The notes beneath the pieces were generated by a model. That model made no database searches. It was not told where the DNA came from and saw nothing but the letters and a program-made list of their open reading frames with translations. From Paratractidigestivibacter faecalis (GTDB lineage: Bacteria; Actinomycetota; Coriobacteriia; Coriobacteriales; Atopobiaceae), in the NCBI RefSeq assembly GCF_003416765.1, contig NZ_QSNG01000001.1, positions 1,080,742-1,144,741 of the forward strand: 64,000 bases of DNA, in the 5' to 3' direction. Positions 10,944 through 42,442 of this stretch are shown in pieces. Both the position numbers and the translations under genes were made by a program. Numbering within the stretch: position 1 is the first letter of the stretch; the number at the start of each line of letters is the position of its first letter.

Positions 10944-11855
10944 CTACGCCGCAAGGGACTGTCTCCGGAACTCCTCCGGGGTCAGTCCCTTCAGTTTAAC
11001 CTGGCGCCTCCTCGTGTTCCAATGGACCACGAAGTCGTCGAGGTCCGCCTTGAAGGACTCGAAGTCCGGCCACGTCCTTCCACGGAAGAACTCGTCCTTG
11101 ATGTGGCCGAACACCTGCTCCGTCGCGCCGTTGTCGATGCAGTTGCCCTTCCGGGACATGCTCTGCACCACGCCGGCCTCCTCCAACCGCCTGCACCAAC
11201 CGGCCTGCTGGTACTGCCAGCCCATGTCCGAGTGCAGGATCGGCCTGGAGCCCTTGGGCTTCTTGGACACGAGCTGGTCGAGCAGCTCGTGCTGCTGAGC
11301 CATGTTGGGGTGCAGCGACGTGGACCAGGCGACGATCTCCTTGCTGCCGAAGTCGTAGACCGGCGCGAAGTAGGCCTTGCCCCAGGGCTGCTTGAACTCG
11401 GTGACGTCGGTGCCCATCTTTTCCCACGGCCCGTCGGCGGCGAAGTCCCTGCCGATGACGTTCTCGAAGGTCTTTCCGACCTTGCCCCTGTACGAGTTGT
11501 ACCTGTGGTAGTCGGTCTCGCGGCGGATCCCGCAGCTGATGCCCATCTCGCGCATCATCTTCAGCGTCGTCTTGTAGGCTATGCGCACGCCCTGCTCGGC
11601 GCGCAGGCACATGGCGATCTGCCTGTGGCCGCACCCGTTGGCGGTGCGCGAGAATATCTCGGCGGCGGCCTCCCAGAGCTCGGGCCTGGTGGGAGCCTTC
11701 GGGTGCGACAGCGCGTAGTAGTAGCTGGACCGGGCCATGCCGGCGCACTCCAGCAGGCGCCCCAGCCCGTGCCCCTCTTCGCGCAGGACCCTCACGGCCT
11801 CGACCTTCGCCCTGGTCAGAGCCCGTCCCTCTCGACCAGGGCACGCAATTTTTTT
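10944..11855 (-). CDS. IS3-family transposase OrfB (made by -1 frameshift from OrfA)
   Basis: Integrase-core half of the transposase. Catalytic residues lie in MGTDVTEF (D), ILHSDMGWQYQ (D) and CIDNGATEQVFGHIKDEFF (E), and the HTH_21-like segment is GLGRLLECAGMARSSYYYALSHP. The frame has no good start of its own. It joins OrfA at the A-AAA-AAA heptamer (complement of 11849-11855), where a -1 slip turns ...YLKKL into ...YLKKIACPG. The transframe product would be about 454 residues, almost the same size as the fused transposase at 3923. No inactivating mutation is seen. Confidence 0.9.
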   Translation of the reverse strand, partial: KKIACPGREGRALTRAKVEAVRVLREEGHGLGRLLECAGMARSSYYYALSHPKAPTRPELWEAAAEIFSRTANGCGHRQIAMCLRAEQGVRIAYKTTLKMMREMGISCGIRRETDYHRYNSYRGKVGKTFENVIGRDFAADGPWEKMGTDVTEFKQPWGKAYFAPVYDFGSKEIVAWSTSLHPNMAQQHELLDQLVSKKPKGSRPILHSDMGWQYQQAGWCRRLEEAGVVQSMSRKGNCIDNGATEQVFGHIKDEFFRGRTWPDFESFKADLDDFVVHWNTRRRQVKLKGLTPEEFRRQSLAA

Positions 11856-17073: not shown

Positions 17074-18204
17074 CTAGGCGCCAAAGCAGGGAAAGCCCTC
17101 GAAGACGGGCTTGCCGGAGTAGCGGCGGGGCAGCTCGGCGCCGTCGAGGACGCGGCGGGCGCCTGCGGCCATGGCCTCGAGCTCGAACTCGCCCGGATAG
17201 GCCGTGACCGGGGCTATCCAGCCGCAGCGCTCGACGATGTCGGCGACAAGGCCCTTGTTGTGAACCATGCCGCCTCCGAGCAGAATGCCGTCGACGCCGC
17301 CGCCCAATGCCGCGGCCATGGCGCCGATCTCCTTGCAGATCTGATAGACCATGGCGTCCCAAGCGCGACGGGCCGCCTCGTCGCCGGCCTCGGCGCGCCG
17401 GCTCACCTCGAGGGCGTCGGAGGTGCCCAGCAGGTCGACGAAGCCGCCGGTCTTCATGCAGAGGCGGCGCGTCTCGGCGACGCCGTGGCCGGCCTCCAGG
17501 TAGTCCAGGACCTCGGCCACGGGAAGGGCGCCCGCACGCGTGGGGGCCATCGGGCCCTCGCCGCCCACGATGTCGGCGCCGTCGACCATCTTGCCGTGGT
17601 CGTGGGCGCTGACGGAGATGCCGCCACCGATGTGGCAGACCACAAAGCGGCAGTCCTCGTAGGCACGGCCCATCGAGGCCGCGTGGCGGATGGCCGTCTC
17701 CTTGAGGTTGAGCGCATGAAGGTGCACGTGGCGGTACACGCCGCGCACGCCGGTCATGCGCGCCTCGTCGCACAGCTCGTCGGTGTCGGGCGGGTTCACC
17801 ACAAAGGCTGGGCGGCCGCACCTCGCCGCAAGGGCGTGCGCGATCTGCGGCCCCAGCTGGGCCGGGTGCTGCACGCCGTTTGCGCCGCGCGTGGAGTGGT
17901 CGAGAAGGACGTCGTCCACCTCGTAGGTGCCTCCCGGGAGCGGCAGCAGGCCGCCGCCGCGCCCCACGAAGGCGTCCACGCTGGCAAGGTCCACGCCGTT
18001 CTCCGCGAGCGCGGCCTCGATGAGGCCCAGGCGGTACGGCAGCTGGTCCGACACGCCGGCGAACTTGGCCAGCTCGGAGGCCTCGTGCGCGACGTTTACG
18101 GTGAAGACGGGCTTCTCGCCGTCAAAGAGGCCGACCTTGGTGGAGGTGGAGCCCGGGTTGATGACAAGGACGCGCCAGGCGCGGGGCTCGATGGTCTGCG
18201 CCAT
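17074..18204 (-). CDS. Butyrate kinase-like acyl kinase (module 1)
   Basis: 376 residues of the acetate/butyrate kinase superfamily, nearest to butyrate kinase by length and motifs. It converts an acyl phosphate plus ADP to acid plus ATP. Phosphate-binding NPGSTSTKVGLF is at residues 16-27; others are NGVQHPAQLGP, NPPDTDEL, CHIGGGISVSAHDHGKMVD and LGGGMVHNK. Last gene of thiolase-DUF35-ACP-phosphotransacylase-kinase, 2 bp after the transferase. The acyl group is unknown; butyrate is only the family default. A paralogue with the same neighbours is at 43492. Confidence 0.85.
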   Translation of the reverse strand: MAQTIEPRAWRVLVINPGSTSTKVGLFDGEKPVFTVNVAHEASELAKFAGVSDQLPYRLGLIEAALAENGVDLASVDAFVGRGGGLLPLPGGTYEVDDVLLDHSTRGANGVQHPAQLGPQIAHALAARCGRPAFVVNPPDTDELCDEARMTGVRGVYRHVHLHALNLKETAIRHAASMGRAYEDCRFVVCHIGGGISVSAHDHGKMVDGADIVGGEGPMAPTRAGALPVAEVLDYLEAGHGVAETRRLCMKTGGFVDLLGTSDALEVSRRAEAGDEAARRAWDAMVYQICKEIGAMAAALGGGVDGILLGGGMVHNKGLVADIVERCGWIAPVTAYPGEFELEAMAAGARRVLDGAELPRRYSGKPVFEGFPCFGA

Positions 18205-18206
18205 GG

Positions 18207-19217
18207 CTACTCCCCCTCCGTCAGCGCCTGGGCGCGCACGCAGCTCATGACCACGTTGCCCACGATCTCGGAGACTGGGGCGCTGCGGCTGCAGTCGCAG
18301 ACGATCTTCTTGAAGCCCTGGAGCATGGGGCCGTAGGCGTCGGCGCCCGTGAGGTTCTGGATGATCTTGACGCCGATGTTTCCGACGTTGATGTCGGGCC
18401 AGATGAGGAGGTTGGCACGGCCGGCCACCTCAGACTCGCGGCGGACCTTCTTGGCGGCAACGTCCGGGCGGACGGCGGCGTCAAACTGGAACTCGCCGTC
18501 GATCTTGAGGTCGGGCCTGCGCTCGTTGGCAATGTTGCGCGCGGCGCGGACCTTGTCGACAAGGGCATTGTCCATGGAGCCGTCCGTGGAGTGCGAGAGC
18601 AGGGCGCAGCGCACGTCCCAGCCGGTGAGCGCGGCCACCGTGTCGGAGGAGGCGCAGGCGATGGAGGCCAGCTCCTCGGGCGTGGGGTCAACGCAGACGG
18701 CGGAGTCGCCAAAGCCGATGAGGCCGTTCTCGCCGCCGTCCCAGCCGGGGACCTGGGCGATGCCGCAGGAGCTGATGGTGTCCACGCCGTCGGCCAGGCC
18801 CACGATGATCTGGCCGGCCAGGATGATGTCGCCGGTGGCGTTGGCGATGCCCGCGAACATCACGTCAACGTCGCCGAGCACCTGCATGATGAGGGCGCGC
18901 TCCAGGGGGCGCGTCATGCGCTTGGCCGCGCCCTTGGGCTTGTAGCGGCAGTCGGGGTGCGCCAGGTAGCGCTCGCAGCAGGCGGCGTTGGCGGCCTCGT
19001 CGGTCACGTCGACGACCTCGATGCCGTCGAGCGAGATGCCGCGCTCGCCGGCCAGGCGGGCCAGCTCGGCGCCGTCGCCCACCAGCACGCACTGGGCCAG
19101 GCCCTCGTCGGCCAGCTCGCGCACGGCGCGCATCATGGTCTCGTTGTCGCCCTCGGGGAAGGCGACGCGCATGGGGCGCGCGGCGGCGCGCTCGCGCAGG
19201 GTCTGCATCAGATCCAT
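18207..19217 (-). CDS. Phosphate acyltransferase, PTA/PTB family (module 1)
   Basis: 336 residues. The family moves an acyl group between a thiol carrier and phosphate. Landmarks: RVAFPEGDNETMMRAV near the N terminus, ANATGDIILAGQIIVGLADGVD, LLSHSTDGSMDN, LKIDGEFQFDAAVRP and RANLLIWPDINVGNIGVKI, the phosphate/CoA-site region of Pta and Ptb. It follows the ACP gene by 3 bp, and the kinase follows it by 2 bp. The position next to an ACP suggests the carrier may be acyl-ACP rather than CoA, but the sequence cannot prove that. Similar to the 42443 gene in the second module. Confidence 0.85.
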   Translation of the reverse strand: MDLMQTLRERAAARPMRVAFPEGDNETMMRAVRELADEGLAQCVLVGDGAELARLAGERGISLDGIEVVDVTDEAANAACCERYLAHPDCRYKPKGAAKRMTRPLERALIMQVLGDVDVMFAGIANATGDIILAGQIIVGLADGVDTISSCGIAQVPGWDGGENGLIGFGDSAVCVDPTPEELASIACASSDTVAALTGWDVRCALLSHSTDGSMDNALVDKVRAARNIANERRPDLKIDGEFQFDAAVRPDVAAKKVRRESEVAGRANLLIWPDINVGNIGVKIIQNLTGADAYGPMLQGFKKIVCDCSRSAPVSEIVGNVVMSCVRAQALTEGE

Positions 19218-19220
19218 GCG

Positions 19221-19454
19221 CTACTCCATCTCTTCCTCGACGCGGGCCACGAGCTCGGCGATGTTCTTCATGACCATGACCTCGCGGACGGGCACCTCGG
19301 CATCGAGCTCGTTCTCGATCATGGAGGTGAGGGCGATCATCTTCATGGAGCCCTTGCCTAGCTCGTCGAAGGTGGTCTCGGGCGTGATCTGGCCCTCGTA
19401 CTTGTAGGCGTTCTTGGCGAACTCGGCAACCTGCTCGAAGACTTCCTGGTTCAT
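19221..19454 (-). CDS. Free-standing acyl carrier protein-like (module 1)
   Basis: 77 residues, the size of an ACP. It has the four-helix pattern with TTFDELGKGSMKMIALTSMI, where Ser36 falls at the phosphopantetheine position of the usual DSL motif (here GSM), followed by the acidic helix and VREVMVMKNIAELV. The altered DSL context suggests a specialised, not fatty-acid-synthesis, ACP. It lies in an operon with a thiolase-like enzyme, DUF35 protein, phosphotransacylase and kinase. GGAA precedes the ATG; a palindrome (19493-19523) is just upstream. Confidence 0.75.
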   Translation of the reverse strand: MNQEVFEQVAEFAKNAYKYEGQITPETTFDELGKGSMKMIALTSMIENELDAEVPVREVMVMKNIAELVARVEEEME

Positions 19455-19492
19455 GGTTTGATTCCTTTCATAGGTTGATAAGTCGAGAAGGA

Positions 19493-19523
19493 CCTGCCAT
19501 TGGGGACAGTCCCCAATGGCAGG
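19493..19523 (-). repeat. Palindromic hairpin between DUF35 and ACP genes
   Basis: CCTGCCATTGGGGA (19493-19506) and TCCCCAATGGCAGG (19510-19523) are perfect inverses around CAG. It belongs to the GGGAC/GTCCC palindrome family seen near other stop codons, and lies inside the operon, where it may cause partial termination or stabilise the upstream mRNA. Confidence 0.75.
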
Positions 19524-19544
19524 TAAAAGGGACAGGTCAGATGG

Positions 19545-19964
19545 CTAGTCCAGCTCAAAGGTGAGCATCTTGTAGCCGGGGCGGTCGATCACCTTTGCGT
19601 GGACGCCGACCTTCTCGCCGGCCATGAGGGCCGCGCGGATGGCCGGGGCCTTCTTCTTGGTGATGCCGTAGATGACGTAGGTGTACTGGGCGCCCTCGTC
19701 AATCTCCACGGCGCCGTAGGCGTACTTGCCGTTCTCCTTGAGGTAGGGCTTGTCGTTTTGCGGGCCGGGCAGAGTGAAGTCGATGAGGCGGCCGTGGCCG
19801 GAGACCTCGCACCACTCGGTCTCGTGGTAGCCGCAGGCGTTGCAGGCCAGGTGGGGCGGAAACTCCACGGCACCGCACTCCTTGCACTTGCGGGCGTAGA
19901 ACTTGCCCTGCTCCAGGCCCTCGTAGAACTTCTTGACGATGGGCTCCATCATTTCGAGTTTCAT
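19545..19964 (-). CDS. DUF35 OB-fold / zinc-ribbon acyl-transfer partner
   Basis: 139 residues. The rubredoxin-like zinc ribbon is CKECG...CNACG (residues about 27-43), followed by an OB fold (GHGRLIDFTLP onward). DUF35 proteins form complexes with thiolase-like enzymes, as in archaeal acetyl-CoA C-acetyltransferase/HMG-CoA synthase and the PhlB subunit of 2,4-diacetylphloroglucinol acyltransferase, where they channel the acyl chain. It directly follows the thiolase-like gene by 19 bp. AGAGGAG precedes ATG 19964; the longer frame to 20453 overlaps the thiolase gene and is rejected. Confidence 0.88.
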   Translation of the reverse strand: MKLEMMEPIVKKFYEGLEQGKFYARKCKECGAVEFPPHLACNACGYHETEWCEVSGHGRLIDFTLPGPQNDKPYLKENGKYAYGAVEIDEGAQYTYVIYGITKKKAPAIRAALMAGEKVGVHAKVIDRPGYKMLTFELD

Positions 19965-19983
19965 GGGTCTCTCCTCTCGGCGC

Positions 19984-21270
19984 CTAGCGGACGGCGCGCA
20001 GGATCTGGCAGCGGACGTTCTGGGAACCGCCGAAGCCGCGGACGAAGGTGGTGTCGGGACGCTTGACCATCTGGGTGGCGCCGGCCTCGCCGCGCATCTG
20101 CTTGACGGCCTCGTAGATGTCGGCGATGCCCGAGGCGCCGTGGGCGTGGCCGAAGTTGCAGCGGCCGCCGTGCGGGTTGATGGGCTTGTCACCGTCGTAG
20201 GCGGTGCGGCCGTCGATGGCGTAGCGCCAGGCCTCGCCGCGCGGGATGTAGCCGCACTCCTCCGCGGAGACAATCTCCGACGCGAGGAAGAAGTCGTTGC
20301 ACATGAAGAGGTCGACCTCGTCGGGAGAGACGCCGGTGAGTTCGTAGACCTGCTGGGCGGCGACCTTCGTGGCCCAGTGCTCGTTGTGGACCAGGCCCGC
20401 CTCAACGGCGGAGGCGCCGGTGCCCAGGACCTCGATGGGGGTGTGGGGCACACCCATGGCCAGGGCCTTCTCGGTGGGCATGACCACCAGGGCCGCCGCG
20501 CCGTCGCACTTCTTCTCGAAGCCGGTCACGCGCAGGTACTGGGTGACCTTGGGGTTGTACATGGACTTGAGGTACTCGTCGGCGGTCGCAAAGCCGTTGG
20601 CGGTCGCGTCCTCCTCGACCGTGGTCTCGTACCAGGCCAGCGGGTTGGCCACGGCGCCGCGGCGAAGGCTCTTGGTGAGGCCGTTTAGGGCGTCGTCGAT
20701 CTTCTCGGCGTCGATGTCGTACTGCATGGAGTACTCGTTGATCCAGTTGTCGAAGGACACGCCGAAGGCGCCGTCAAGCGGGCGTCCGTAGGCGCGGTCG
20801 TAGATCTTGTCCAGGGACGGGATCATGACGGAGAGCGGGAAGTCCTGGCGGATGTGGGACGGCTGGTGCTCCACGGGAAGCGTGGAAGCCAGGTCGCAGG
20901 CGCCGGAGAGGACGACGTCGTAGGTGCCGGAGGCCACGGCCATGACGGCCTGCTCGAGCGCCACGTAGCCGGTGCAGCAGGCCTCGGAGTGGTGGACGGA
21001 GCCCTTGGCGCGCATGCCGATCCAGTCGGCCACCTGCATGTTGGGGGTGATGCAGTCTCCCACCAGGTAGGGGTTGGCGCTGCCGTGGTAGAAGAAGTCC
21101 ACGTCGCGCGGCTCCAGGCCGGCGTCGGCGATGGCCTCCAGCGCGGCGTAGCCAAAGGCCTCGCCCTCGCCGATGCCCTGGGTCTCGGGGTGGGTCTCGA
21201 AGTCCTTGAACGGCGTGCAGCCCACGCCGACGATGGACACGCTTCGAGCGTTCTTGCCAAGCTTGACCAT
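19984..21270 (-). CDS. Thiolase-family (SCP2-like) acyltransferase
   Basis: 428 residues, single-domain-pair thiolase fold of the non-classical type that partners DUF35 proteins. The nucleophilic Cys is in HSEACCTGYVAL (Cys98), and the C-terminal active site is NPHGGRCNFGHAHGASGIADI-like with the GHAHGASG His; the second classical Cys-x-Gly loop is altered (SQNVRCQIL). Such enzymes make or break C-C bonds of beta-keto acyl groups, sometimes without CoA (PhlC). It is the first gene of module 1. The reaction may be a retro-Claisen cleavage feeding the ACP, but the substrate is unknown. Confidence 0.85.
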   Translation of the reverse strand: MVKLGKNARSVSIVGVGCTPFKDFETHPETQGIGEGEAFGYAALEAIADAGLEPRDVDFFYHGSANPYLVGDCITPNMQVADWIGMRAKGSVHHSEACCTGYVALEQAVMAVASGTYDVVLSGACDLASTLPVEHQPSHIRQDFPLSVMIPSLDKIYDRAYGRPLDGAFGVSFDNWINEYSMQYDIDAEKIDDALNGLTKSLRRGAVANPLAWYETTVEEDATANGFATADEYLKSMYNPKVTQYLRVTGFEKKCDGAAALVVMPTEKALAMGVPHTPIEVLGTGASAVEAGLVHNEHWATKVAAQQVYELTGVSPDEVDLFMCNDFFLASEIVSAEECGYIPRGEAWRYAIDGRTAYDGDKPINPHGGRCNFGHAHGASGIADIYEAVKQMRGEAGATQMVKRPDTTFVRGFGGSQNVRCQILRAVR

Positions 21271-21650: not shown

Positions 21651-22271
21651 TCACTTCTCGCCGAAGGGGGAGGTGGGGCTCGTGCGGGCGCGGGACTCGT
21701 CGAGGAAGAAGGGGGCGTAGAAGAGGCGGTTGAGGACGCCGGCCACCTTCTCGGGCGGCGTGTCGGGGCGCTCCTCCAGCCAGTACTGGATGACGTTGTG
21801 GTGCCCCGCCAGAACGAAGGCCAGGTAGAAGTCTCGGTAGTCGGCGGACCCTGGCACGTCGGCCAGGCGGTCGCGGAAGTGGTCGTGCATGAGGACGGTG
21901 GCCTTGTGGATGAACTGCGGGTCCCCGTGGGGGCCGTTCAGCGCCACGATCTTGTCGCGGCGCTCCTGGAGGAGCTCCATGCGGCGGATCATGGTGGGCG
22001 TGGGGTCGAGCTCAGCCAGGCCGAAGCGCGCCTTCAGGGCGTACCCGTTGATGTCGTGCATGTTGGCCAGAAGGTCCATCTCGAAGCCCTTGACCACCTG
22101 GTCAACGCTGTCGAAGTGCCGGTAGAACGTGGAGCGCGACACCCCCGCCCCATGGCAGACGTCCGCCACGCGGATGTCCGGTATGTCGGTGGTCCTCATG
22201 AGCGAGAAGACTGCGTCCTCTATGCGCTCGTCAGCTGAGTCGCGCTTCTTGTCGTATCCCCAGGCCGTCAT
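21651..22271 (-). CDS. TetR-family transcriptional regulator
   Basis: 206 residues. The N-terminal helix-turn-helix is IEDAVFSLMRTTDIPDIRVADVCHGAGVSRSTFYRHF in two blocks (residues 19-54), with a variable helical C-terminal ligand domain ending close to the REP repeat. It is divergent from the PucR gene and just upstream of module 1, so it probably controls one or both. ATG 22271 with AAGGA upstream is used; GTG 22277 is also possible. The ligand is unknown. Confidence 0.88.
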   Translation of the reverse strand: MTAWGYDKKRDSADERIEDAVFSLMRTTDIPDIRVADVCHGAGVSRSTFYRHFDSVDQVVKGFEMDLLANMHDINGYALKARFGLAELDPTPTMIRRMELLQERRDKIVALNGPHGDPQFIHKATVLMHDHFRDRLADVPGSADYRDFYLAFVLAGHHNVIQYWLEERPDTPPEKVAGVLNRLFYAPFFLDESRARTSPTSPFGEK

Positions 22272-22302
22272 GACCACACTTCCTTTCAGATTCGGCTACC
22301 AT

Positions 22303-22360: not shown

Positions 22361-23674
22361 ATGAACACCACCGGCACAGACGTGCAGGAATCAAACGAGC
22401 GCCTGCTCAAGGCCCTGTTTTCCAACCGAGGCCTGACTCACCTCGTGGAGGTGGGCGCCGCCGAGCTTGGCAACCCGGTACTGGTAGTTGACCCAACCTA
22501 CCACTACGCCGCCCGCGCCGGCATAGAGCTCGACGACGCCGACGACTCCGCCTTCGCCCGCTTCGTCCGCACCGAGTCCGCCGACGAGGTCATCGCCGAC
22601 GAGGGCATCCGCTACATCAAGGAGACGGGCGTGGACGAGGAGCTCGCCCGCGCGCACGGCGCGGTGCTGCGGCACAACCCCCTCTACGACCTCGACACCC
22701 TGACGCAGGACGTCGTGGCCGAGGGCATCTGCCTGGGCCGCGTTATGGCCCTGGCAAAGAACCACCCCTTCGGCGAGGCCGACCGCGCCGTCTTCGACCG
22801 GCTCGTGGCCCTGGTGGCCCAGGAGCTCCAGAAGGGCGGGTTCCTCTCTTCCAAGGACTCGCAGGCAGGGCCCTACTTCCTGGCCCGCCTGCTCGACGAC
22901 GAGCAGCCCAACCCCATGCACACCGCGCGCCGCATGAAGCTGGTGGGCTTCTCTCCCCTCTCCACGCTCTTCGTGGTGACCCTGCGCCGCCGCGAGGGAG
23001 ACATGGACGGCAGCTGCGCCCAGCGCGTGCGCGCCCACCTCTCGGGCCTCCTCGCGCACAGCCTCTCCACCATCTACGACAACGAGCTCGTCTGCCTGGT
23101 CTCTCGCACGGACGAGCCGGTGCTTCCCGCACGCGACGAGGAGGCCCTCGTGCGCGCCGCCGCGAGCAACGGGCTCTTGGTGGGCATCAGCAACGCGTTC
23201 TCGGAGGTCACCGACGTGCGCCCCCACCTGGAGCAGGCGAGAAGCGCCATCCGCTACGGGTCCACCTACACCAAGATCCTGGACGACACCGGCGTCTACC
23301 GCTACTGCGAGTACACCTACATGGAGATGCTGGACATCTGCAACGACCACGTGAACCTGATGAACTACTGCCACCCGGCCATCTGGGCCCTGTGGGAGTA
23401 CGACCAGGCGCACGGCACCGAGCTCGTGGAGACGCTCTTTGCCTACATGCAGAACGGCTGCAACACCGCCCGCACCTCCGCCCTGCTCAGCCTGCACAAG
23501 AACACGCTGCTCTACCGCCTGGGCAGGATCCGCGAGGTCACCGGCAACGACCTCGCCTCCGGGGAGGACCTGTTCCTCTTCCACCTCTCCATCCGCGTCC
23601 TGCTCTACCTGGGCATCTTCGAGACCCGCACCAAGCCGCGCTCGAGCGCGGACCTGCACCTGCCGGCGGAGTAG
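22361..23674 (+). CDS. PucR-family transcriptional regulator (module 1)
   Basis: 437 residues. The C-terminal PucR-type helix-turn-helix is LVETLFAYMQNGCNTARTSALLSLHKNTLLYRLGRIREVTG in two blocks (about 360-400). The N-terminal and middle parts show a GAF/GGDEF-related sensor layout as in CdaR/PucR activators (VVDPTYHYAARAG; LVGISNAFSEVTDVRPHLEQARSAI). Such proteins usually activate a nearby catabolic operon when the substrate is present. ATG 22361 has AGGGGAC upstream and is preferred to 22301. A hairpin with paired 9-mer words follows the stop. Confidence 0.88.
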   Translation: MNTTGTDVQESNERLLKALFSNRGLTHLVEVGAAELGNPVLVVDPTYHYAARAGIELDDADDSAFARFVRTESADEVIADEGIRYIKETGVDEELARAHGAVLRHNPLYDLDTLTQDVVAEGICLGRVMALAKNHPFGEADRAVFDRLVALVAQELQKGGFLSSKDSQAGPYFLARLLDDEQPNPMHTARRMKLVGFSPLSTLFVVTLRRREGDMDGSCAQRVRAHLSGLLAHSLSTIYDNELVCLVSRTDEPVLPARDEEALVRAAASNGLLVGISNAFSEVTDVRPHLEQARSAIRYGSTYTKILDDTGVYRYCEYTYMEMLDICNDHVNLMNYCHPAIWALWEYDQAHGTELVETLFAYMQNGCNTARTSALLSLHKNTLLYRLGRIREVTGNDLASGEDLFLFHLSIRVLLYLGIFETRTKPRSSADLHLPAE

Positions 23675-23779: not shown

Positions 23780-24772
23780 CTAGTCGCGCTTGATCTCGAG
23801 CGTGGGGAACTCCATCTTGGCGTACTTGTCAATGAGGGGCTTGACCTCGCCCATGTGCGCGAAGAACTCGTCGCGCGTCTTGTTAATCTCGTTCAGGTGC
23901 TCAGCGCGGGCGCGGTCGTCGTTGCGGTCGCGGATGAGGCCGTTCTCAGCGATCCTGAGCTTGGGGCGGCCGGTCTTCTCGTCGGTCACGAGGTCGCCGC
24001 CGGCGCCGCAGACGGCGCACTCCCACGGGAACTCGACGCCGTCCCAGTGCTTGTCGCCGGGGTAGACCAGGGAGCTGTGGCAGTTGGGGCAGACGCCGTC
24101 GTCGGCGTCGCCCAGCCAGCAGCGCTCCTCGACGGGGGTCTGGATGGCCTTGACGATGTTCTCGCCCATCCTGCGGGCGCGGGCGAGCTGGCCGCCCCAC
24201 TCATCGCCCTCGCCCCACACGAAGCAGTTGCCCGGGCGGCCGTCGCGCTGGGCCATGTAGCGGTCAACGACCTGCATGGACATGGTGAACATGGTGGCCT
24301 GCAGGCTCTCCAGCGCAAGGGATTGCCAGTCGTGCATGGAGCCGCCGACGGAGATGAGGCCGGCCACCGTGTGCGGGTTCTCCTTGACGTCGCCGATGGC
24401 GAGCCTGAAGGAGAGCTCGTAGGCGAGGAAGCGCTGGGCCAGGCGGGTATAGACGGAGCTGGGCGTGAGGTCGTAGGTGGGGACCGAGATGATCACGCCC
24501 TGGCAGGTCTGGATCTCGTTGATGATGGCGTCGACGTCGTCCTTGTTCTTGAGGACGCAGCCGTGGTACTCCTTCTGGAGGCCGGCGGCCATCTTGCCCA
24601 TCTGCATGGTGCAGCCCTCGCAGCCGGTGCAGGGCAGGATGTTGTAGTCAAAGAGGTTGATGAGCTCGACCTCTCCGCCCGCCTCCTGGACCGCGCAGAG
24701 GGCCTCCTTGGCGAGCGCCTCGCCATTTCCGCCGTGCCTGCCGGCGCAGATTGCCATAACCTTGAACGACAT
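23780..24772 (-). CDS. Iron-sulfur flavoprotein / FMN reductase with zinc ribbon (module 1)
   Basis: 330 residues. N-terminal flavodoxin-like NADPH-dependent FMN reductase fold starting MAICAGRHGGNGEALAKEAL, with a compact Cys motif LPCTGCEGCTMQ and a later CVLKNKDD, as in iron-sulfur flavoproteins. The extra C-terminal domain has CPNCHSS...WECAVCG (a zinc-ribbon or rubredoxin-like site, residues about 230-260). It likely passes single electrons or reduces a small organic substrate in the cytosol. Paralogue of the 37233 gene, which holds the same place beside module 2. ATG 24772 has GAGAGGGG 5 nt upstream. Confidence 0.82.
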   Translation of the reverse strand: MSFKVMAICAGRHGGNGEALAKEALCAVQEAGGEVELINLFDYNILPCTGCEGCTMQMGKMAAGLQKEYHGCVLKNKDDVDAIINEIQTCQGVIISVPTYDLTPSSVYTRLAQRFLAYELSFRLAIGDVKENPHTVAGLISVGGSMHDWQSLALESLQATMFTMSMQVVDRYMAQRDGRPGNCFVWGEGDEWGGQLARARRMGENIVKAIQTPVEERCWLGDADDGVCPNCHSSLVYPGDKHWDGVEFPWECAVCGAGGDLVTDEKTGRPKLRIAENGLIRDRNDDRARAEHLNEINKTRDEFFAHMGEVKPLIDKYAKMEFPTLEIKRD

Positions 24773-32091: not shown

Positions 32092-32119
32092 CAGACAGGC
32101 TGAAAACGCAGGTTACTTG
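32092..32119 (+). repeat. Right 28-bp direct repeat bounding the island
   Basis: CAGACAGGCTGAAAACGCAG then GTTACTTG. Partner of 25074-25101, 26/28 identical, 7,018 bp away. It covers the final codon and TAA stop of the NuoF-like gene. Confidence 0.75.
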
Positions 32120-33186
32120 CGCTTGAAGGGAATGGGCTTGGGCGGGCACTTGGGCTTGACGGCGCCGGCGGTCACGATGGCACCGTACTCGCAGGAGCCC
32201 AGGCAGGCGCCGCACTGGGCGCAGGCCTTCTGGTCGATGACGTGGATGAAGCGCGGACGGCCCAGGATGGCGTCCTCCTCGCAGGAGTCCACGCAGGCGT
32301 TGCATGCCTGGCACTTGCTGGCCAGGATGTGGTAGGTGAGAAACGCCTTGCACTCCCCCGCCGGGCAGGTCTTCTTGCCGATGTGGGCAGAGATCTCGGC
32401 CTCGAAGAGGTCGAGGAAGGCCATGACGGTCCTGGCCATGACGCGGCCCTGCTCGCAGAGGCACTGGCTCTGCATGACGGGGCAGAGGTCGCGCAGAAGC
32501 GCCAGGTCGGAGGGCTTGCCCTTCTTGCGGCAGACGTCCGCCACGATGGTGGCGATCTGGTGGCTTCCCTCGTGGCCGAAGACGCAGCGGCCGCAGGTCT
32601 CGTGGCGGTAGAGCTGGCAGATCTCGTTCAGCGCGTTGGCCATGCAGTTCTTGGCCGTGTAGACGCGCACGTAGTCGCTGGCGAGCTCGACCGTGGCCTC
32701 GGCGTCGGCGGCGGAGGTCAGCGTGCCGGCGGGATAGCCGACGTAGACGGCCTTGGGCTCCTCGGCGCCGGCGGCGGCTGCGAGCTCGGCCACCGTGGCG
32801 GTGGCGCCCAGGCAGACGGGCTCGGAGGCACCCTCGAGCCAGACACAGCGGCTGCCCTCGTCCGCCAGCAGGGCGCTGCCCTCGATGACGGAGTCGGCGC
32901 CCTCGCCGTTGGCGCAGGACGGGATGGGCTTCTCGCCGGAGAGCACCTTGGCGGCGGCAGACGGGTTGGCGTAGACGAAGCCGAGCTCGGGGTTGCACTC
33001 CACCACGCGGACGGAGTCGCCCAGCGCGTCGGCGAGACGTGCGGCAAGTTCGTGGCCGGCCGGGACGAGCACGGCCTTGGCGCCGGAGTCGGCGATTCTT
33101 GAGACGGAGGCGTCAAAGTCCCTGGCCAGGAGCCAGAGCGCGACGGGGGCCTGCCTGTGGGCAGGCATGAGGTTGACGACGGTCAT
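32113..33186 (-). CDS. NuoF-like iron-sulfur protein with two ferredoxin clusters, no FMN domain
   Basis: 357 residues. The middle (about 190-280) matches the iron-sulfur end of NADH dehydrogenase subunit NuoF: HETCGRCVFGHEGSHQIATI, then CPVMQSQCLC. The usual CxxCxxC is CGRCVFG, so the third Cys is lost. The C terminus has two [4Fe-4S] ferredoxin motifs (CQACNACVDSC, CAQCGACLGSC). The N-terminal 180 residues lack the NuoF FMN/NADH Rossmann glycines. It probably takes electrons from the flavoprotein encoded 17 bp upstream. ATG 33186 has AAAGGAG upstream. Confidence 0.75.
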   Translation of the reverse strand: MTVVNLMPAHRQAPVALWLLARDFDASVSRIADSGAKAVLVPAGHELAARLADALGDSVRVVECNPELGFVYANPSAAAKVLSGEKPIPSCANGEGADSVIEGSALLADEGSRCVWLEGASEPVCLGATATVAELAAAAGAEEPKAVYVGYPAGTLTSAADAEATVELASDYVRVYTAKNCMANALNEICQLYRHETCGRCVFGHEGSHQIATIVADVCRKKGKPSDLALLRDLCPVMQSQCLCEQGRVMARTVMAFLDLFEAEISAHIGKKTCPAGECKAFLTYHILASKCQACNACVDSCEEDAILGRPRFIHVIDQKACAQCGACLGSCEYGAIVTAGAVKPKCPPKPIPFKRK

Positions 33187-33203: not shown

Positions 33204-35336
33204 CTAGTACTCGTTCCAGAGGCGCGGGGAGGTGAGGGTGAGGCGCAGGTCGCACTGCAGGCAGCGGCTGGCCTCGCAGGTGGCCTCCTGCTCGGTGTAG
33301 GGGCACTCGAAGACGTCGAAGTCGTGCTTGCGCTCCTCGGCGTCGCGGAACTGCGGCTGCACGGCCTCGCCGTAGAAGCCCTCCGGCGCTCGGCCGATGT
33401 GCTGGCAGGGGGCCTCGTGCTCGGTGAGCTCGCCGTCGATGTCGCCGTCTCCGCCCAGGGCGCGGTCGATGGCGGAGGCGCACTCGCGGCCCGCGGCGAT
33501 GGCGGCGATGACGGACTTGGTGCCGGTCACGCAGTCGCCGGCGGCCCAGACGCCCTCGACGCTGGTCTTGCCCTCGGCATCGGCCACGATGTAGGGGCCG
33601 TGGGTGAGCTCGAAGCCCATGTCCGCGGTGCCCTCGGGCTTCTGGCCCACGGCGAAGATGACGCGGTCCACGTCGATGGTCATCTCGCCGCCGTCGAGAA
33701 GCTCTGTCACGGCACGGTGGTTCTCGTCAAAGTAGAAGCGCTCGATCTTGTGGATGGTCATGGAGCCGACCTTGCCGGAGCCCTCGGCGCTCTCGTTGAT
33801 GCTCGTGAAGGCGTAGGCGTCGTGCAGGACCACGCCCTCCTCGGCGGCCTCGGCGCGCTCCTCGGGGGTGGAGGTCATGACTGCCTCGGCCTCCAGGCAG
33901 GCGACGTCCACGGACGCGGCGCCCAGGCGCACGGCGGTGCGGGCGCAGTCGTAGGCGACGTTGCCGCCGCCCAGGACCATGACGCGCAGGCCCGTGAGGT
34001 CCTCGGCCTCGCCCCTGCGGGCGGCCTTCAGGAAGTCGGTGTTGCGGACGACGCCCTCAAGGTCGTGGCCGGCCATGGGCAGCACGGTGCCGTCGTGGGT
34101 GCCGATGGTCACCAGCACGGCGTCGAAGCCCTCGGACAAGAGCGCCTTGGGGTTGGCGACGCGAGTCCCGCAGGCAAGCTCGATGCGGGGCTCTGGGTCG
34201 CCGGCCTGGGAGATCTCCAGGATGGTTGCCACCTCGGCGTCGACGGTCTCGTCGGGCAGGCGGTAGGCCGGGATGCCGTAGCGCATCTGGCCGCCGACCT
34301 TCTCGTTTGCCTCGAAGACCTTGACCTGGTGGCCCTTCTCGGCGCAGTAGAGGGCCGCGGTGAGGCCGGCGGGGCCGGCGCCCACGACGGCGACGCGCTT
34401 GCCGGTGAGCGGCTCGTGGCGGACGTTGGCCTTCCAGGTGCCCTCGTCGCGGACGGCGGCGGCGCGCTTCAGGCGGCAGACGGAGACCGGCGTGCCGTTG
34501 AGGCCGTTGCGCTTGCAGGCGCCCTGGCAGTTGTGGACGCAGATGTCGCCCAGGCTCTCGGGGAAGGGTACCTTCTCGCGGACGACGGCCGCGGCCTGGG
34601 TGTACTCGCCGTTGCGGATGTGGCGCAGGTAGCGCGGGATGTCCACGTGCGCGGGGCAGCCGGAGCGGCAGGGGACCACGTTGTCGGCGTAGGACTTGTT
34701 CTCGTCAAACATGTTGAGGGTGTCCACGATGGAGCCCGTCGGGCACACCTCGATGCAGGCGCCGCAGAAGCGGCAGCCGGCCTGCTGAAGGCTCACGCTG
34801 CCGTCGGTGCCGATGCGGATGCCCTCCTCGGTGTGCTGGTAGTCGAGCACGCCGACGCCGCGCAGCTCGCGGCAGGCGCGCACGCAGCGGCCGCAGCGGA
34901 TGCAGCGGGTGAACATGTGGGTGATGAGCGGGTTCTTGTCGTCGGTGGCAACCGGGCGGCTCTTGACGCGCCAGCGGGTGGGAGACACGCCCATGTACTG
35001 GTACATGGACTGCAGCTCGCACTTGCCGTACTTGGGGCAGCCGGTGCAGTCGGTGGGGTGCGTGGCCAGGATGAGCTCCATGGCCATCTTGCGCACGCGC
35101 TCGGCGGCCTCGCCGGTGGTGCTCACCACCATGCCCTCGGCCACGGGCGTCTTGCAGGCGCAGACCGGGCCGTCGGTGCCCTCGACCTCGACCATGCACA
35201 GGCGGCAGCCGCCCACGGCCTCAAGGTCGGGGTGCTTGCACAGGTGCGGGATGTAGATGCCGGCGTCAAGGGCGGCCTCAAGGACGTTTTGTCCCTCGGC
35301 GGCCTCGACCTCGGTCCCGTTGATTGAAAGCTTCAT
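33204..35336 (-). CDS. Ferredoxin-GltD-type NAD(P)H oxidoreductase (NuoG N-terminal domain fused to FAD/NAD domain)
   Basis: 710 residues. Order: [2Fe-2S] domain (CKHPDL..GGCRLC..CACK, residues about 30-60), the His-Cys3 [4Fe-4S] motif (HPTDCTGCPKYGKCELQ), two ferredoxin motifs (CIRCGRCVRAC; CRFCGACIEVC), then a GltD-type flavoprotein with GAGPAG (FAD) and GGGNVAYD (NAD(P)H) and VEGVWAAGDC. This is the layout of NADH-linked formate dehydrogenase/hydrogenase accessory flavoproteins (SudA/GltD-like). It moves electrons between NAD(P)H and ferredoxin-type carriers. ATG 35336 follows GGGGA. Co-transcribed with the NuoF-like gene. Confidence 0.88.
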   Translation of the reverse strand: MKLSINGTEVEAAEGQNVLEAALDAGIYIPHLCKHPDLEAVGGCRLCMVEVEGTDGPVCACKTPVAEGMVVSTTGEAAERVRKMAMELILATHPTDCTGCPKYGKCELQSMYQYMGVSPTRWRVKSRPVATDDKNPLITHMFTRCIRCGRCVRACRELRGVGVLDYQHTEEGIRIGTDGSVSLQQAGCRFCGACIEVCPTGSIVDTLNMFDENKSYADNVVPCRSGCPAHVDIPRYLRHIRNGEYTQAAAVVREKVPFPESLGDICVHNCQGACKRNGLNGTPVSVCRLKRAAAVRDEGTWKANVRHEPLTGKRVAVVGAGPAGLTAALYCAEKGHQVKVFEANEKVGGQMRYGIPAYRLPDETVDAEVATILEISQAGDPEPRIELACGTRVANPKALLSEGFDAVLVTIGTHDGTVLPMAGHDLEGVVRNTDFLKAARRGEAEDLTGLRVMVLGGGNVAYDCARTAVRLGAASVDVACLEAEAVMTSTPEERAEAAEEGVVLHDAYAFTSINESAEGSGKVGSMTIHKIERFYFDENHRAVTELLDGGEMTIDVDRVIFAVGQKPEGTADMGFELTHGPYIVADAEGKTSVEGVWAAGDCVTGTKSVIAAIAAGRECASAIDRALGGDGDIDGELTEHEAPCQHIGRAPEGFYGEAVQPQFRDAEERKHDFDVFECPYTEQEATCEASRCLQCDLRLTLTSPRLWNEY

Positions 35337-35469: not shown

Positions 35470-36975
35470 CTAGGACCACTCCTCGTCGCCCGCGTCCTCG
35501 AAGCAGGAGGCCGCCGCGTTCTCGCCGGCGATGCGGCCGGAGTTGAGGCAGAAGCCCATGGTGTTGCCCGGGATGCAGTAGTTGTAGGAGTCGCCGTAGA
35601 TGGTGCAGGCGTCGGTGCCCACGCAGTAGAGGCCAGGGATGACCTCGTAGTCGTCGGTCATGACCTCCATCTTGTGGTTGATGAGCACGCCGCCCAGGGT
35701 GCCGTAGGCGCCGCAGTACTGCTTGCAGCAGTAGAAGGGGCCCTTCTCCAGCGGGCGCATGAACTCGCGCTCCTTCTCGAAGATGTCATCCCAGCCGTTG
35801 TCGCACATCTCGTTGTACTCGTCGACGTTGGCAAGAAGCCCCTCGACGTCGATGCCGGCCTTCTCGGCGAGCTCCTCGAGGGTGTCGGCCTGGCAGATGG
35901 CGGGGTAGCCGGCCTCCAGGTCACGGTTCCACTGCTCCTCGAAGCCCTCGTAGAGGTCGTGCGGGTGGACGTGGGAGACGATGTCCGGGCCGTCCTTCTT
36001 CCAATGCTTGAGCATGCGGGAGTCGAAGATGGCGTAGGCGACCTTGCCGGGCAGGTGGTTGATGGCGTTGCCGACGAAGGTGGTGTTGTAGATCTCGTCC
36101 TCGGGCATGAAGCGCTCGCCGAGGCGGTTGCACCAGTAGCAGGGCTGGCGGAAGGCGCCCTCGACGTAGAAGTGGTTCATGTTGTCGGGAATCTGGTACA
36201 TGAGCTCCATGGTGACGGGGGTGTGGCCCGCGCCGACCTCGTGGCACATGTTGATGCCGTCGCCGTCCATGCCGGGGATGGCGAAGGAGAACAGGTCCTT
36301 GCCCCACTCGAAGCCGAGCTTCTCCTTGATGAGCTTGGCGTTGTGGCCAAAGCCGCCGGTGGCGACGATGACGGACTTGCAGGAGATCTGGTACTCCTCG
36401 CCGTCCTTGTCCTTGGCGGTGACGCCGCAGACGGCGCCGTCCTCGCCCTTGACCAGGCCGGTGGCGGGGCACTCGAGCATGAACTCGACGCCCAGCTCCT
36501 GGGCGCGCTCGGTCATGCGCTTGGTCATCGTGGTGGCAGCGCGCGGGCCGGGCTCGGAGCCGTCCTCGGGCTGGACGACGTGCCAGGTGTACTCGCCGTC
36601 GGAGTAGCCGCGGGTGCGCTCGCGGGCGCGGAAGGCGGGACGCACGGAGTTGAAGACCACGCCCATGTCCTGCAGCCAGGCGATGGTGTCGCCGGACTTG
36701 AAGTAGTAGTCGCGGACCAGGCGGGCGTCCACCTGGTAGTGCGTGTAGAACATGTGGCGACGGAAGAGCTCGCCGGGGGTGACCTCGATCATGGAGCCCT
36801 TCTGGACCGGGGAGCCGGCCGCGGCCGGGCCCATGCCCATGTTGGCGGCGCCACCGGTGTTGGACGCCTTCTCCAGGGTGATGACGCGGGCGCCGCCCTC
36901 GGCGGCAGCCACGGACGCGGCCAGGCCGGACAGGCCGGCGGCAACGACGACGACGTCAGTCTCAAGCTGCTTCAT
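35470..36975 (-). CDS. FAD-dependent fumarate reductase-type flavoprotein
   Basis: 501 residues of the succinate dehydrogenase/fumarate reductase flavoprotein superfamily, short single-subunit type. FAD motif TDVVVVAAGLSGLAASVAAAEGGA (residues 6-29) has AAGLSG for the usual GxGxxG; the ADP-ribose strand ends in LEKASNTGGAANMG; C-terminal GLYCVGTDACTIYGDSYNYCIPGNTMGFCL is the second FAD site. Members reduce or dehydrogenate enoates, ketosteroids or urocanate. No Tat or Sec signal, so cytosolic. Own terminators on both sides. ATG 36975 has GGAGG. The substrate is unknown. Confidence 0.87.
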   Translation of the reverse strand: MKQLETDVVVVAAGLSGLAASVAAAEGGARVITLEKASNTGGAANMGMGPAAAGSPVQKGSMIEVTPGELFRRHMFYTHYQVDARLVRDYYFKSGDTIAWLQDMGVVFNSVRPAFRARERTRGYSDGEYTWHVVQPEDGSEPGPRAATTMTKRMTERAQELGVEFMLECPATGLVKGEDGAVCGVTAKDKDGEEYQISCKSVIVATGGFGHNAKLIKEKLGFEWGKDLFSFAIPGMDGDGINMCHEVGAGHTPVTMELMYQIPDNMNHFYVEGAFRQPCYWCNRLGERFMPEDEIYNTTFVGNAINHLPGKVAYAIFDSRMLKHWKKDGPDIVSHVHPHDLYEGFEEQWNRDLEAGYPAICQADTLEELAEKAGIDVEGLLANVDEYNEMCDNGWDDIFEKEREFMRPLEKGPFYCCKQYCGAYGTLGGVLINHKMEVMTDDYEVIPGLYCVGTDACTIYGDSYNYCIPGNTMGFCLNSGRIAGENAAASCFEDAGDEEWS

Positions 36976-37232: not shown

Positions 37233-38231
37233 CTAGCGCTCGGGAGTGGTGGCGGAGATGGCCTCCTTGTAGAAGTTGACGCGGTCCTTGTAGGCCTGGG
37301 TCTTCTTCATCTCGGCGAGCTTGCCCTCGTTCTCCTGGATGTCCTTGCCGTGGATCTCCTTGCCGGAGATGATGTCGTGGGCCTTGTGCAGGTCCTCGTC
37401 CCTGTAGGTGACGTGGGCACCGGTCTCGTCGACGGACAGCTCGCCCTCGAGGCCGCAGACGCAGCAGATGGCGCGGTTCTCGCCGGGGACGATGTAGAAG
37501 TCGTTGCAGTTGCAGTGGGGGCAGATGCCCTTCTTGCCCTGGTACTCAACGCCCTCGTAGGGCTGCTTGCCGGAGGCGCAGTTCTCCTGGATCTGCTTGG
37601 CGGCGGCGGCCAGGTTCTGGCCGATCTGGGTGGCACGGTCGATGAGGGCGTCGTCCATCAGGGCCGTCTTGGACCAGGGCACCCACTCGTTGTCGATGAC
37701 CTTCCAGCTGGGGGTCATGGCCTGGAGCTGGTGCTCGGACTGGACATGCGTGCCCCAGTCGGAGCCGCCGATGCCGATGTAGGAGACGGCCTTGGGGCTC
37801 ATGATGGCCGGGTCGGGGACCACGACGCCCTGGGCGGCGGGACCACCCTCGGCCAGGCGGCCCTTGGCGATCTGCGTGGAGATGAAGTTGTTGCCGGTGT
37901 CCATGCGGGGTCCGAAGCGATCCATGATGGTGTGGAACAGGCCGGAGGCGCCGGTCTCGAAGATCGGGTCGACCATGACGACGCCGTCGGCACGGAACAT
38001 CTCGAAGGCCAGCCAGTCAAAGTCGTCCTTGTGGATGCACATGTTCTTGGTGCCGCTCATGAGCATCTTGACGCAGGTGATGCAGCCGGTGCAGTGCTTG
38101 ATGTCGAGGTCCATCGCGCGGATGAACTCGACCTCGCAGCCAGCCTCCTTGGCGGCCAGAAGCACAGCCTTGCAGATGGTGTCGTTGTTGCCGTTCTTGG
38201 TGCCAAACGAGACGCCCACGATCTTGGTCAT
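37233..38231 (-). CDS. Iron-sulfur flavoprotein / FMN reductase with zinc ribbon (module 2)
   Basis: 332 residues. Flavodoxin-like fold from IVGVSFGTKNGNNDTICKAV, then the Cys motif KHCTGCITCVKML with a fourth Cys in KNMCIHKDD (compact cluster of iron-sulfur flavoproteins). A C-terminal zinc-ribbon pair CPHCNCN...CCVCG lies near residues 255-275. It is a paralogue of the 23780 protein with the same added domain, a rare combination. ATG 38231 with AAGGGG; the frame to 38429 upstream is ignored. It is next to the second PucR gene. Confidence 0.82.
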   Translation of the reverse strand: MTKIVGVSFGTKNGNNDTICKAVLLAAKEAGCEVEFIRAMDLDIKHCTGCITCVKMLMSGTKNMCIHKDDFDWLAFEMFRADGVVMVDPIFETGASGLFHTIMDRFGPRMDTGNNFISTQIAKGRLAEGGPAAQGVVVPDPAIMSPKAVSYIGIGGSDWGTHVQSEHQLQAMTPSWKVIDNEWVPWSKTALMDDALIDRATQIGQNLAAAAKQIQENCASGKQPYEGVEYQGKKGICPHCNCNDFYIVPGENRAICCVCGLEGELSVDETGAHVTYRDEDLHKAHDIISGKEIHGKDIQENEGKLAEMKKTQAYKDRVNFYKEAISATTPER

Positions 38232-38455: not shown

Positions 38456-40009
38456 TCAGCCGAGGCCCTCCAGGATGGACGTGGAGAAGGACGTGGCCAG
38501 GCGGTCGTCGCCGTCCTTGAGGTCGATGAAGAAGAGCTCACGGACCTTGTTCACGCGGTAGAAGTACGTGTTGCGATGGACGTTCAGGGCGCCGGCGGCC
38601 TCGGCGGGGCTGCCGGGGAAGCGCACGGACATGACGGCCGTCTTGAGGTAGTCGGTGCCGTGGTCGCGGTCGTAGTCGGCCATGGCGACCACGCGCTTGT
38701 CGAGCATGCGCTCGAGGCGGTCGGCGCCCTCCGGGGCGCAGGCCAGGACGGCAAAGCGGTTCTCCCAGAAGTAGACCACCCGGCCCGCCACGCGGGAGGC
38801 GCAGGCCTGCGCGAGGTCGGTGGCCTGCGCGAGCCTGCCGGGCGCGAGCGCCAGGTCACGCAGGGGCTCGGCCACGAAGGCGCGCAGGTCGTTGTTCTCG
38901 AGCGCGCTCGTGAGCTGGGTGTTTCCCGAGAGCCTGCGCGCGGCGCGAGCGTAGTCGTCGTAGCCCACGCACTCGTTCCTGCCGATGGGGGCAAGCACCA
39001 CCAGACAGTTCTCGCGGGCGCACCACAGGCAGTCGCGGAAGGCGCGCGCCACGATGCCGCCCACCCGGGCGTAGTAGTCCTTGCCGGCGCCGCGCTGGCC
39101 CATGACGGCCATCATGACGTAGGAGACGTCCAGCGGAAGGCCCGTCAGGGCGAGCTGCGCGCGCATGGTCGGCTCGTTGGCAAAGGCGCCGGCCACGAGG
39201 TCCTCCAGGACCGACGAGCCAAAGCCCACGCGCTCCCCCGCCGCGCCCAGGCGGTCGATCATGATGCCGGCGAGCTGCCCCGCGTAGTCGACGAGCTCCA
39301 GGTCAAAGCCGGTGATGGGGCGGTCGGACTCCATGACGTCGTAGCGGCCCATCTCGAGGTGGTGGTAGTAGATGATCGAGGTCACCCAGTGCCTGCCAAA
39401 GCGGGTGGTGCCCGAGAGCAGCGAGTGGCGGGCGTGCCGGACGGCCTCGATCATGCCGTCCGCCTCGAGCTCGGAATTCACGCCCTCGGACACGTAGCCG
39501 CAGGAGAGGACCTCCTGCACGTCGGGGGCGTCGGCGGGAAACTCGCCGGCGGTGGCGAGAAGGCGCATGTCGGCGTTGACGATGATGACAGGGTTGCCCA
39601 GCACCTCGGAGGACCTGCGCGCGAACTGCGGCAGGTCGTAGGACGAGAGGAACGCCTCGAACATCTTCTCGCGCCTGACCTCGAGGATGGCCGCGCCGGC
39701 GGGAAGGTCCAGGAAGGTGGCGCGGAAGTCCCCGTAGGAGTAGGGGTGGCTCACCACCACGGCGTCCGCCGAGCACGAGAAGCCCTCGGGAAGGGCGCCC
39801 TGGGTGTGGACGAGAAGGACCTGCCCCTCGCCGGCCTTGACGTGCTCCTCCAGGTAGCTCTGGAGGCTGCACAGGCGCAGGAGCTTTGCCTCGGGCGGGA
39901 CGTTCTTCTCGTACTCCGGCACGACGATGACGTCCTCGTCCAGGAGCTCGTCACGGCCCACGCAAAGCGGTGCGCACTGCAGCTCGTTAAGGACGGTCCT
40001 CAGCTTCAT
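38456..40009 (-). CDS. PucR-family transcriptional regulator (module 2)
   Basis: 517 residues. The C-terminal PucR helix-turn-helix is SPAEAAGALNVHRNTYFYRVNKVREL (about 470-495; written in part). The middle part has a GGDEF-like/CdaR layout, and the N terminus has a sensor segment LRTVLNELQCAPLCVGRDELLDEDV. A much longer open frame continues upstream to 43336, but only this part has protein-like sequence; ATG 40009 follows GGGGGG by 6 nt. It is divergent from the CocE-type operon and probably activates it. Confidence 0.88.
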   Translation of the reverse strand: MKLRTVLNELQCAPLCVGRDELLDEDVIVVPEYEKNVPPEAKLLRLCSLQSYLEEHVKAGEGQVLLVHTQGALPEGFSCSADAVVVSHPYSYGDFRATFLDLPAGAAILEVRREKMFEAFLSSYDLPQFARRSSEVLGNPVIIVNADMRLLATAGEFPADAPDVQEVLSCGYVSEGVNSELEADGMIEAVRHARHSLLSGTTRFGRHWVTSIIYYHHLEMGRYDVMESDRPITGFDLELVDYAGQLAGIMIDRLGAAGERVGFGSSVLEDLVAGAFANEPTMRAQLALTGLPLDVSYVMMAVMGQRGAGKDYYARVGGIVARAFRDCLWCARENCLVVLAPIGRNECVGYDDYARAARRLSGNTQLTSALENNDLRAFVAEPLRDLALAPGRLAQATDLAQACASRVAGRVVYFWENRFAVLACAPEGADRLERMLDKRVVAMADYDRDHGTDYLKTAVMSVRFPGSPAEAAGALNVHRNTYFYRVNKVRELFFIDLKDGDDRLATSFSTSILEGLG

Positions 40010-42040: not shown

Positions 42041-42065
42041 CCCGCCGCGCACGACCAAGAGAAGT

Positions 42066-42090
42066 TGACAAAGGGACTGTCCCTTTGTCA
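42066..42090 (+). repeat. Palindrome between hydrolase and ACP genes
   Basis: TGACAAAGGGAC-T-GTCCCTTTGTCA, perfect. It occupies the same position (before the ACP gene) as the palindrome at 19493-19523 in module 1. Confidence 0.8.
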
Positions 42091-42118
42091 CCAAGACCAA
42101 ACAAGAAGGAGCATTGAC

Positions 42119-42370: not shown

Positions 42371-42442
42371 TTGCCCCAGGGCCCGCAACCAGGCACTTCT
42401 CGCCTGACTGCGGGCTCTCTTTCTATAGAAAGGACCCAACAG

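Follow-up and report, generated by a model that had tools for sequence, protein, structure and literature searches.

Several described systems turn a protein-bound acyl group into usable energy or move it without a free carrier. In glycine reductase, GrdC/GrdD take a protein-bound acyl thioester to acetyl phosphate and then to ATP, and citrate lyase employs an acetylated acyl carrier protein (ACP) for C-C cleavage; both differ from the locus described here, since their catalytic subunits are unrelated and no thiolase/DUF35 pair is combined with a phosphotransacylase (Pta). The Ptb-Buk and Pta-Ack pairs also convert an acyl phosphate into ATP, but starting from a coenzyme A (CoA) thioester. Thiolase-fold subunits that hold the acyl group on a cysteine beside a DUF35 protein are found in PhlABC of Pseudomonas protegens and in MucABC; according to the accessible part of PMC6392133, PhlC is active without CoA, its essential residues include Cys88 and His56, and His56 is proposed to deprotonate the phenol. 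BbsAB, the benzoylsuccinyl-CoA thiolase, likewise unites a thiolase with a DUF35 protein, although it acts on CoA substrates and has no ACP. Here we describe an operon of Paratractidigestivibacter faecalis, located in a stretch of 64,000 nucleotides of contig NZ_QSNG01000001.1 (positions 1,080,742 to 1,144,741; hereafter the window), in which a thiolase/DUF35 pair is joined to an ACP, a Pta and an acyl kinase. Judging from gene content and conservation, we consider it rather probable that the operon serves catabolism and conserves energy through acyl transfer, with a dedicated ACP at its core.

The operon occupies positions 17074-21270 of the minus strand. It begins with a thiolase-fold acyltransferase of 428 amino acids (19984-21270; Pfam Thiolase_C_1, 8e-30), bearing the nucleophile Cys98 and His375, and continues with a DUF35 zinc-ribbon/OB-fold partner (19545-19952; zf-ChsH2, 4e-7), the dedicated ACP (19221-19454; PP-binding, 6e-9; its serine lies in a GSM motif), the Pta (18207-19217; PTA_PTB, 6e-82) and a kinase of the butyrate kinase family (17074-18204; TIGR02707, 365.6 bits against a cut-off of 289.1). 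From the coordinates, the gaps between these genes measure 31, 90, 3 and 2 bases in that order, so they are likely to form one transcript; a scan of the window for promoters and terminators gave no signal above chance. An original prediction, made from the letters of the window, had already recognized the thiolase, the DUF35 protein and the ACP, and the three minus-strand open reading frames do find support in Pfam. It had also tied the downstream Pta and kinase to the ACP, and these two enzymes indeed complete a route from acyl group to ATP.

The adjacency of these genes is widely conserved and, by the counts that follow, not due to chance. A thiolase scan of bacterial and archaeal genomes yielded 46 loci, the neighbours being scored with hidden Markov models built from the neighbours themselves; the locus counts are based on stop-to-stop frames together with these models, called genes lying in wrong frames at some GC-rich loci (L004, L009, L010 and others). 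In 42 of the 46 loci the thiolase gene is followed by one for an ACP, and three more loci (L021, L022, L032) are cut by contig ends. The complete order thiolase-DUF35-ACP-Pta-kinase was seen in Coriobacteriia, in Streptococcus ovis/moroccensis and in Erysipelotrichaceae. Within a sample of 396 Coriobacteriia genomes, the thiolase is present in 49 at 1e-90 or better, all 49 of them with a Pta of the module type; 30 loci from this sample, some from organisms that overlap with the 46-locus set, have the ACP in 28 cases, the other two ending at DUF35. A class-level sample centred on an Erysipelotrichaceae genome has the module in 4 of 395 genomes. Gene fusions point in the same direction: DUF35 is fused to the ACP three times (L147 and L148 in the Erysipelotrichaceae-centred sample, and L205 in a Coriobacteriia genome from the same taxonomic order as the host), and the thiolase is fused to DUF35 once (L146). 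Sequence evidence could hardly establish the partnership of the five proteins more firmly. A literature search, with most subscription papers outside its reach, found no description of this gene combination. Two loci (L207 and L040) hold two thiolase-DUF35 pairs each and a single ACP, which suggests paired substrates or heteromers, and at another (L037:10001-11202) the thiolase gene is broken into two frames and no DUF35 was detected, with ACP, Pta and kinase in place.

The ACP itself carries signs of a dedicated function. All 54 module ACPs compared have its phosphopantetheine serine, though not the Asp that normally stands before it, and a gene for a holo-ACP synthase (AcpS) adjoins the module in ten loci (L005, L036, L038 and L041-L047), belonging to Collinsella phocaeensis, Erysipelotrichaceae, HGW-Actinobacteria-1, an uncultured archaeon and Micrarchaeota; the nine AcpS entries tested (eight distinct genes) all pass the Pfam ACPS cut-off. 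Conserved adjacency, the dedicated AcpS and both types of fusion thus place the ACP with the thiolase and DUF35, and the protein looks meant for loading and for work with these two partners. The host genome (2.1 Mb, 99% complete) encodes four PP-binding proteins, two of them in the window; by reading of their neighbourhoods, one of the others adjoins plsX and one belongs to an apparent dlt operon. Three PTA_PTB proteins are encoded in the same genome, again two in the window and one elsewhere. The Pta of the operon does not reach the scores set for equivalogs specific for acetyl or butyryl groups (TIGR00651, 231.6 against 311.2; TIGR02706, 67.9 against 410.5). Ptas from modules with a butyrate-kinase-type (Buk) enzyme, those of the window included, bear a Glu near the C-terminus (5 of 5 aligned); the host's other Pta and those accompanied by an acetate-kinase-type (Ack) enzyme bear an Asp there (4 of 4 aligned), at the position of the proposed catalytic base.

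Five archaeal genomes searched encode exactly one PP-binding protein each, and it is the module ACP. Among 245 Micrarchaeota genomes there are 13 thiolases at 1e-60, of which 11 reach 1e-138 or better, and all 11 of these have a relative of acetate kinase next to them, together with DUF35, ACP and AcpS. Neither ACP nor AcpS accompanies the two distant thiolases, one of which adjoins an HMG-CoA-synthase-like protein and genes that read as a mevalonate pathway. We considered whether the archaeal module could be the entry to this pathway, which is unlikely: a separate HMG-CoA-synthase-like protein, named from sequence and context, occurs in 12 of 12 module genomes, and a separate mevalonate-type thiolase in 11 of the 12 (G405 has no second thiolase). 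The archaeal branch, in which the Pta of one locus (L042) passes TIGR00651 with 312 and the Ack of that locus passes TIGR00016, would make acetyl phosphate.

The active site of the thiolase was compared in 69 distinct sequences, 54 from the Buk branch (window included) and 15 from the mostly archaeal Ack branch. Cys98 and His375, the latter within GHAHGASG, are invariant in all 69. Both had been named for the window protein in the original prediction, and the changed second cysteine loop that it described was also recovered: residues 325-327 read N-D-F where SCP2-type thiolases have H-D-C. In these thiolases, according to the available extract of PMC12329534, the second catalytic cysteine is located in the HDCF motif. 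The window protein lacks both this motif and this cysteine, and its branch has, from the N-D-F reading, lost the latter: N325 is found in 52 of the 54 Buk-branch sequences, F327 in 53 (Met in the remaining one), Cys at 327 in none, and additional histidines at position 62 in 52 and at position 377 in 49. The Ack branch has H325 and C327 (15 of 15), and both additional histidines are absent from it. A Buk-branch enzyme could dispense with an acid cysteine if it released a stabilized enolate or phenolate, as we infer.

Structure prediction (pLDDT 82) matched the thiolase with the archaeal acetoacetyl-CoA thiolase, BbsAB, PhlC, MucABC and the Ltp2 and Sal aldolases, all of which have DUF35 partners, and further with 7yvy and SCP2 thiolases. 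PhlABC and MucABC align at Z 43-44 (PhlC at 43), and BbsAB is, with 7yvy, among the best structural matches, although the window proteins remain far below the Bbs NCBIfam cut-offs (97.9 against 750 and 19.6 against 250 bits). The closest folds are those of CoA thiolases (7yvy, Z 47.0; 6et9, Z 45.3; 7pxp, Z 45.0), as would be expected if the protein were an ordinary CoA-dependent beta-keto thiolase and the ACP merely exchanged acyl groups with CoA or served some other purpose. We hold this to be improbable, given that no beta-oxidation gene set recurs in the thiolase neighbour clusters read, that ACP-DUF35 fusions exist and that AcpS is encoded in the locus of archaea with no other ACP.

The comparison with PhlABC also has its limits: the thiolase subunit with its Cys and His and the DUF35 protein are both here, but the KAS III-like PhlA partner is not, and the window adds ACP, Pta and kinase instead. 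The absence of PhlA noted in the original prediction was borne out by the KAS III C-domain PF08541, which has zero matches in the host genome and is detected in 11 of 14 control genomes. The same result bears on the idea that the ACP carries a beta-ketoacyl substrate which the thiolase shortens, in polyketide or fatty-acid salvage. Keto substrates do normally ride on an ACP when fatty acids and polyketides are made, but here a KAS III C-domain is missing from the genome, the loci read show no recurrent set of ketosynthase, reductase and dehydratase, and Pta and kinase require a released acyl thioester; we regard this explanation as the least probable of those considered. The host has no PF08541 match in spite of an ACP-plsX-rnc locus, and it may initiate fatty acids in an unusual way or not at all.

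A second module (40235-44616, plus strand), some 20 kb from the thiolase operon, has the same kind of back end behind an unrelated front end; the original prediction mentions neither this module nor the flavone-reductase homologue described below. The module comprises a CocE/NonD-family serine hydrolase with Peptidase_S15 and PepX_C domains (40235-42040; nucleophile Ser205), a second dedicated ACP with a KSV motif (42119-42370), a second Pta (42443-43438) and a second butyrate-kinase-family kinase (43453-44616; TIGR02707, 371.3 bits against a cut-off of 289.1). The CocE-like protein scores 183.1 bits with TIGR00976 (cut-off 66.3), and all 49 sequences compared have Ser205. In 26 of 30 loci, the window among them, no more than 1.5 kb separates the CocE gene from an ACP gene; in the other four the ACP gene is about 1.5-2 kb off, beyond an inserted MFS gene in three of them (L060, L065, L068). 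In L070/L155 the genes run ACP, CocE, AcpS, Pta, kinase. In the 396 Coriobacteriia genomes, the CocE-like protein is found in 50 at 1e-178 or better, the thiolase in 49 and both in 35, a co-occurrence with a Fisher p of 5e-27, uncorrected for ancestry. Because the Cys-based thiolase and the unrelated Ser-based CocE-like enzyme share it, ACP-Pta-kinase would act as an exchangeable back end. Eight of the 50 CocE genomes have no module-type Pta, and in the one that was read (L156) no ACP was detected nearby. Conversely, this Pta occurs in 61 of the 396 genomes, 56 of which also have a thiolase or CocE-like front end; the other five (G238, G356, G373, G377, G388) gave no strong match to either, and three of them (G238, G356 and G388, at L195, L196 and L203) showed no new front end on what are short contigs or positions near contig ends. 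The CocE-like family retains the nucleophilic serine, but it does not keep the Asp that cocaine esterase has in its GWYD motif; this Asp is also absent from 3ib3, the closest solved structure by sequence. The structure predicted for the CocE-like protein had a mean pLDDT of 52.7 and was not used. One CocE locus (L151) holds acyl-CoA-dehydrogenase-like genes.

From these data we infer a scheme in which the proteins would form a complex for C-C cleavage and acyl transfer. Cys98 of the thiolase, held by DUF35, would attack a ketone of the 1,3-dicarbonyl or acyl-phenol type and split the C-C bond, the acyl group staying behind as a Cys98 thioester. With the ACP docked at DUF35, its pantetheine arm would receive this group, Pta would exchange the carrier for phosphate, and the kinase would turn the resulting acyl phosphate into ATP and a free acid. 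Acyl-ACP would probably be the energy-carrying intermediate, and CoA would be required solely as the source of the ACP arm. In the second module, the CocE-like serine hydrolase would feed the same kind of back end.

One alternative to the scheme concerns its direction. All the back-end enzymes are reversible, so that kinase and Pta could activate an acid with ATP and load the ACP, and the thiolase-DUF35 pair could acylate an acceptor in a biosynthesis similar to that of Phl. PhlC, of the same fold, does acylate phenols through an acyl-cysteine (PMC6392133, as far as its accessible part goes), and no evident substrate-specific catabolic gene lies beside the module in the Micrarchaeota loci read. 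However, in the bacteria the module is accompanied by reductases, by an MFS transporter and by regulators of the PucR and TetR types, as expected of substrate breakdown; the second front end belongs to a hydrolase family; and in archaea the module does not appear to serve mevalonate synthesis, in view of the genome counts given above. We therefore judge the biosynthetic direction unlikely, though less so than the other two alternatives.

These neighbours also hint at the substrate. Upstream of the thiolase operon lies a TetR-type regulator (21651-22277, minus), which is kept in other loci too, followed by a divergent PucR-type regulator (22361-23674, plus), recognized from Pfam and neighbour comparison, and by an ene-reductase-like protein of the FMN_red type that carries CxxC pairs at its C-terminus (23780-24772, minus). 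The second module is accompanied by an MFS transporter (44815-46107, plus) and a divergent PucR-type regulator (38456-40009, minus). Next to the latter is a further FMN_red protein (37233-38231, minus), which aligns with FLR, the flavone reductase of Flavonifractor plautii, over query residues 3-332 and chain residues 2-309 (4e-97). It keeps D103, G106, S147, W149, H271 and I275, residues cited in the accessible text of PMC7862272, whose data statement identifies PDB 7d38 as FLR, and it is probably a flavone reductase. The FMN_red protein near the thiolase operon is only distantly related to FLR (1.5e-14). Where a locus has either type, the distance to the thiolase or CocE gene is in most cases no more than about 4 kb. 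Next to the probable flavone reductase, also on the minus strand, are an enoate/fumarate-reductase-like flavoprotein (FAD_binding_2; 35470-36975) and two iron-sulfur proteins, a NuoG/GltD-like flavoprotein (33204-35336) and a NuoF-like one (32113-33186), which may deliver electrons. The flavone reductase and the other reductases suggest reduced plant polyphenols as substrates; a tamer alternative would be a 1,3-diketone arising from ring reduction. Elsewhere in the window, a transposase-like open reading frame (10944-11795, minus) has an apparently identical copy near position 284 kb of the same contig (first 120 residues and length the same).

In F. plautii, flavones are processed by FLR, chalcone isomerase (CHI), EnoR and phloretin hydrolase (PHY), according to the part of PMC7862272 available. 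The window has an FLR homologue with the cited active residues, but in F. plautii the energy of the bond is lost through hydrolysis by PHY. A bolder proposal would be that the ACP-loading enzymes stand in for PHY and save this energy: at the step that known flavonoid degraders hydrolyse, a thiolase/DUF35 or CocE-type enzyme would transfer the acyl group of 1,3-diketones, or of C-acylated phenols such as the dihydrochalcone type formed when flavonoids are reduced, to a dedicated ACP for ATP formation, the thiolase/DUF35 chemistry being a reverse Friedel-Crafts or retro-Claisen reaction. Such a new substrate-level phosphorylation, with ACP in the place of CoA, is a tentative idea that we find possible and yet doubtful.

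Several observations speak against a catabolic, ACP-based module and deserve to be weighed together. The usual phosphopantetheine motif of ACPs is DSL, and its Asp is missing from both the GSM of the operon ACP and the KSV of the second one. No AcpS gene adjoins the operon in the window, the host genome not having been searched for one. At one locus (L039) a close thiolase-DUF35 pair has no adjoining ACP; its Pta and kinase genes are about 4 kb off, and an ACP-linked copy is on another contig of that genome (L115). Several rumen loci have the ACP several kb away from Pta and kinase. Because Pta and acyl kinases are reversible, gene content does not set the direction. Among the scanned window genes, Pfam recognized no CHI- or PHY-like protein, a search that left some window genes and the rest of the genome outside and in which Pfam may have no model for bacterial CHI; a look-up in the PDB for chalcone isomerase gave no match for 49650-50615 and only a metallo-beta-lactamase fold for 46409-47281. 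The polyphenol link thus rests on the reductases. Finally, the two families include the CoA-dependent BbsAB and archaeal acetoacetyl-CoA thiolase, which score as well as or better than PhlC and PhlB, so that the families alone are no argument for CoA independence; the ACP does argue for it. In this respect the original prediction, which had taken PhlC and PhlB as its models, holds at the level of the fold but not as an argument against CoA, and as a whole it is partly supported.

If acyl-ACP does feed Pta and kinase, energy would be gained from the cleavage of ketones or esters without passing through CoA, by means of a module that a gut bacterium shares, almost unchanged in gene content, with several archaea. 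This would account for the occurrence of ACP and AcpS in Micrarchaeota, and would provide a CoA-free enzyme set, with exchangeable front ends, for the cleavage or formation of C-C bonds. It would also offer a testable route by which gut Coriobacteriia could profit from plant polyphenols.

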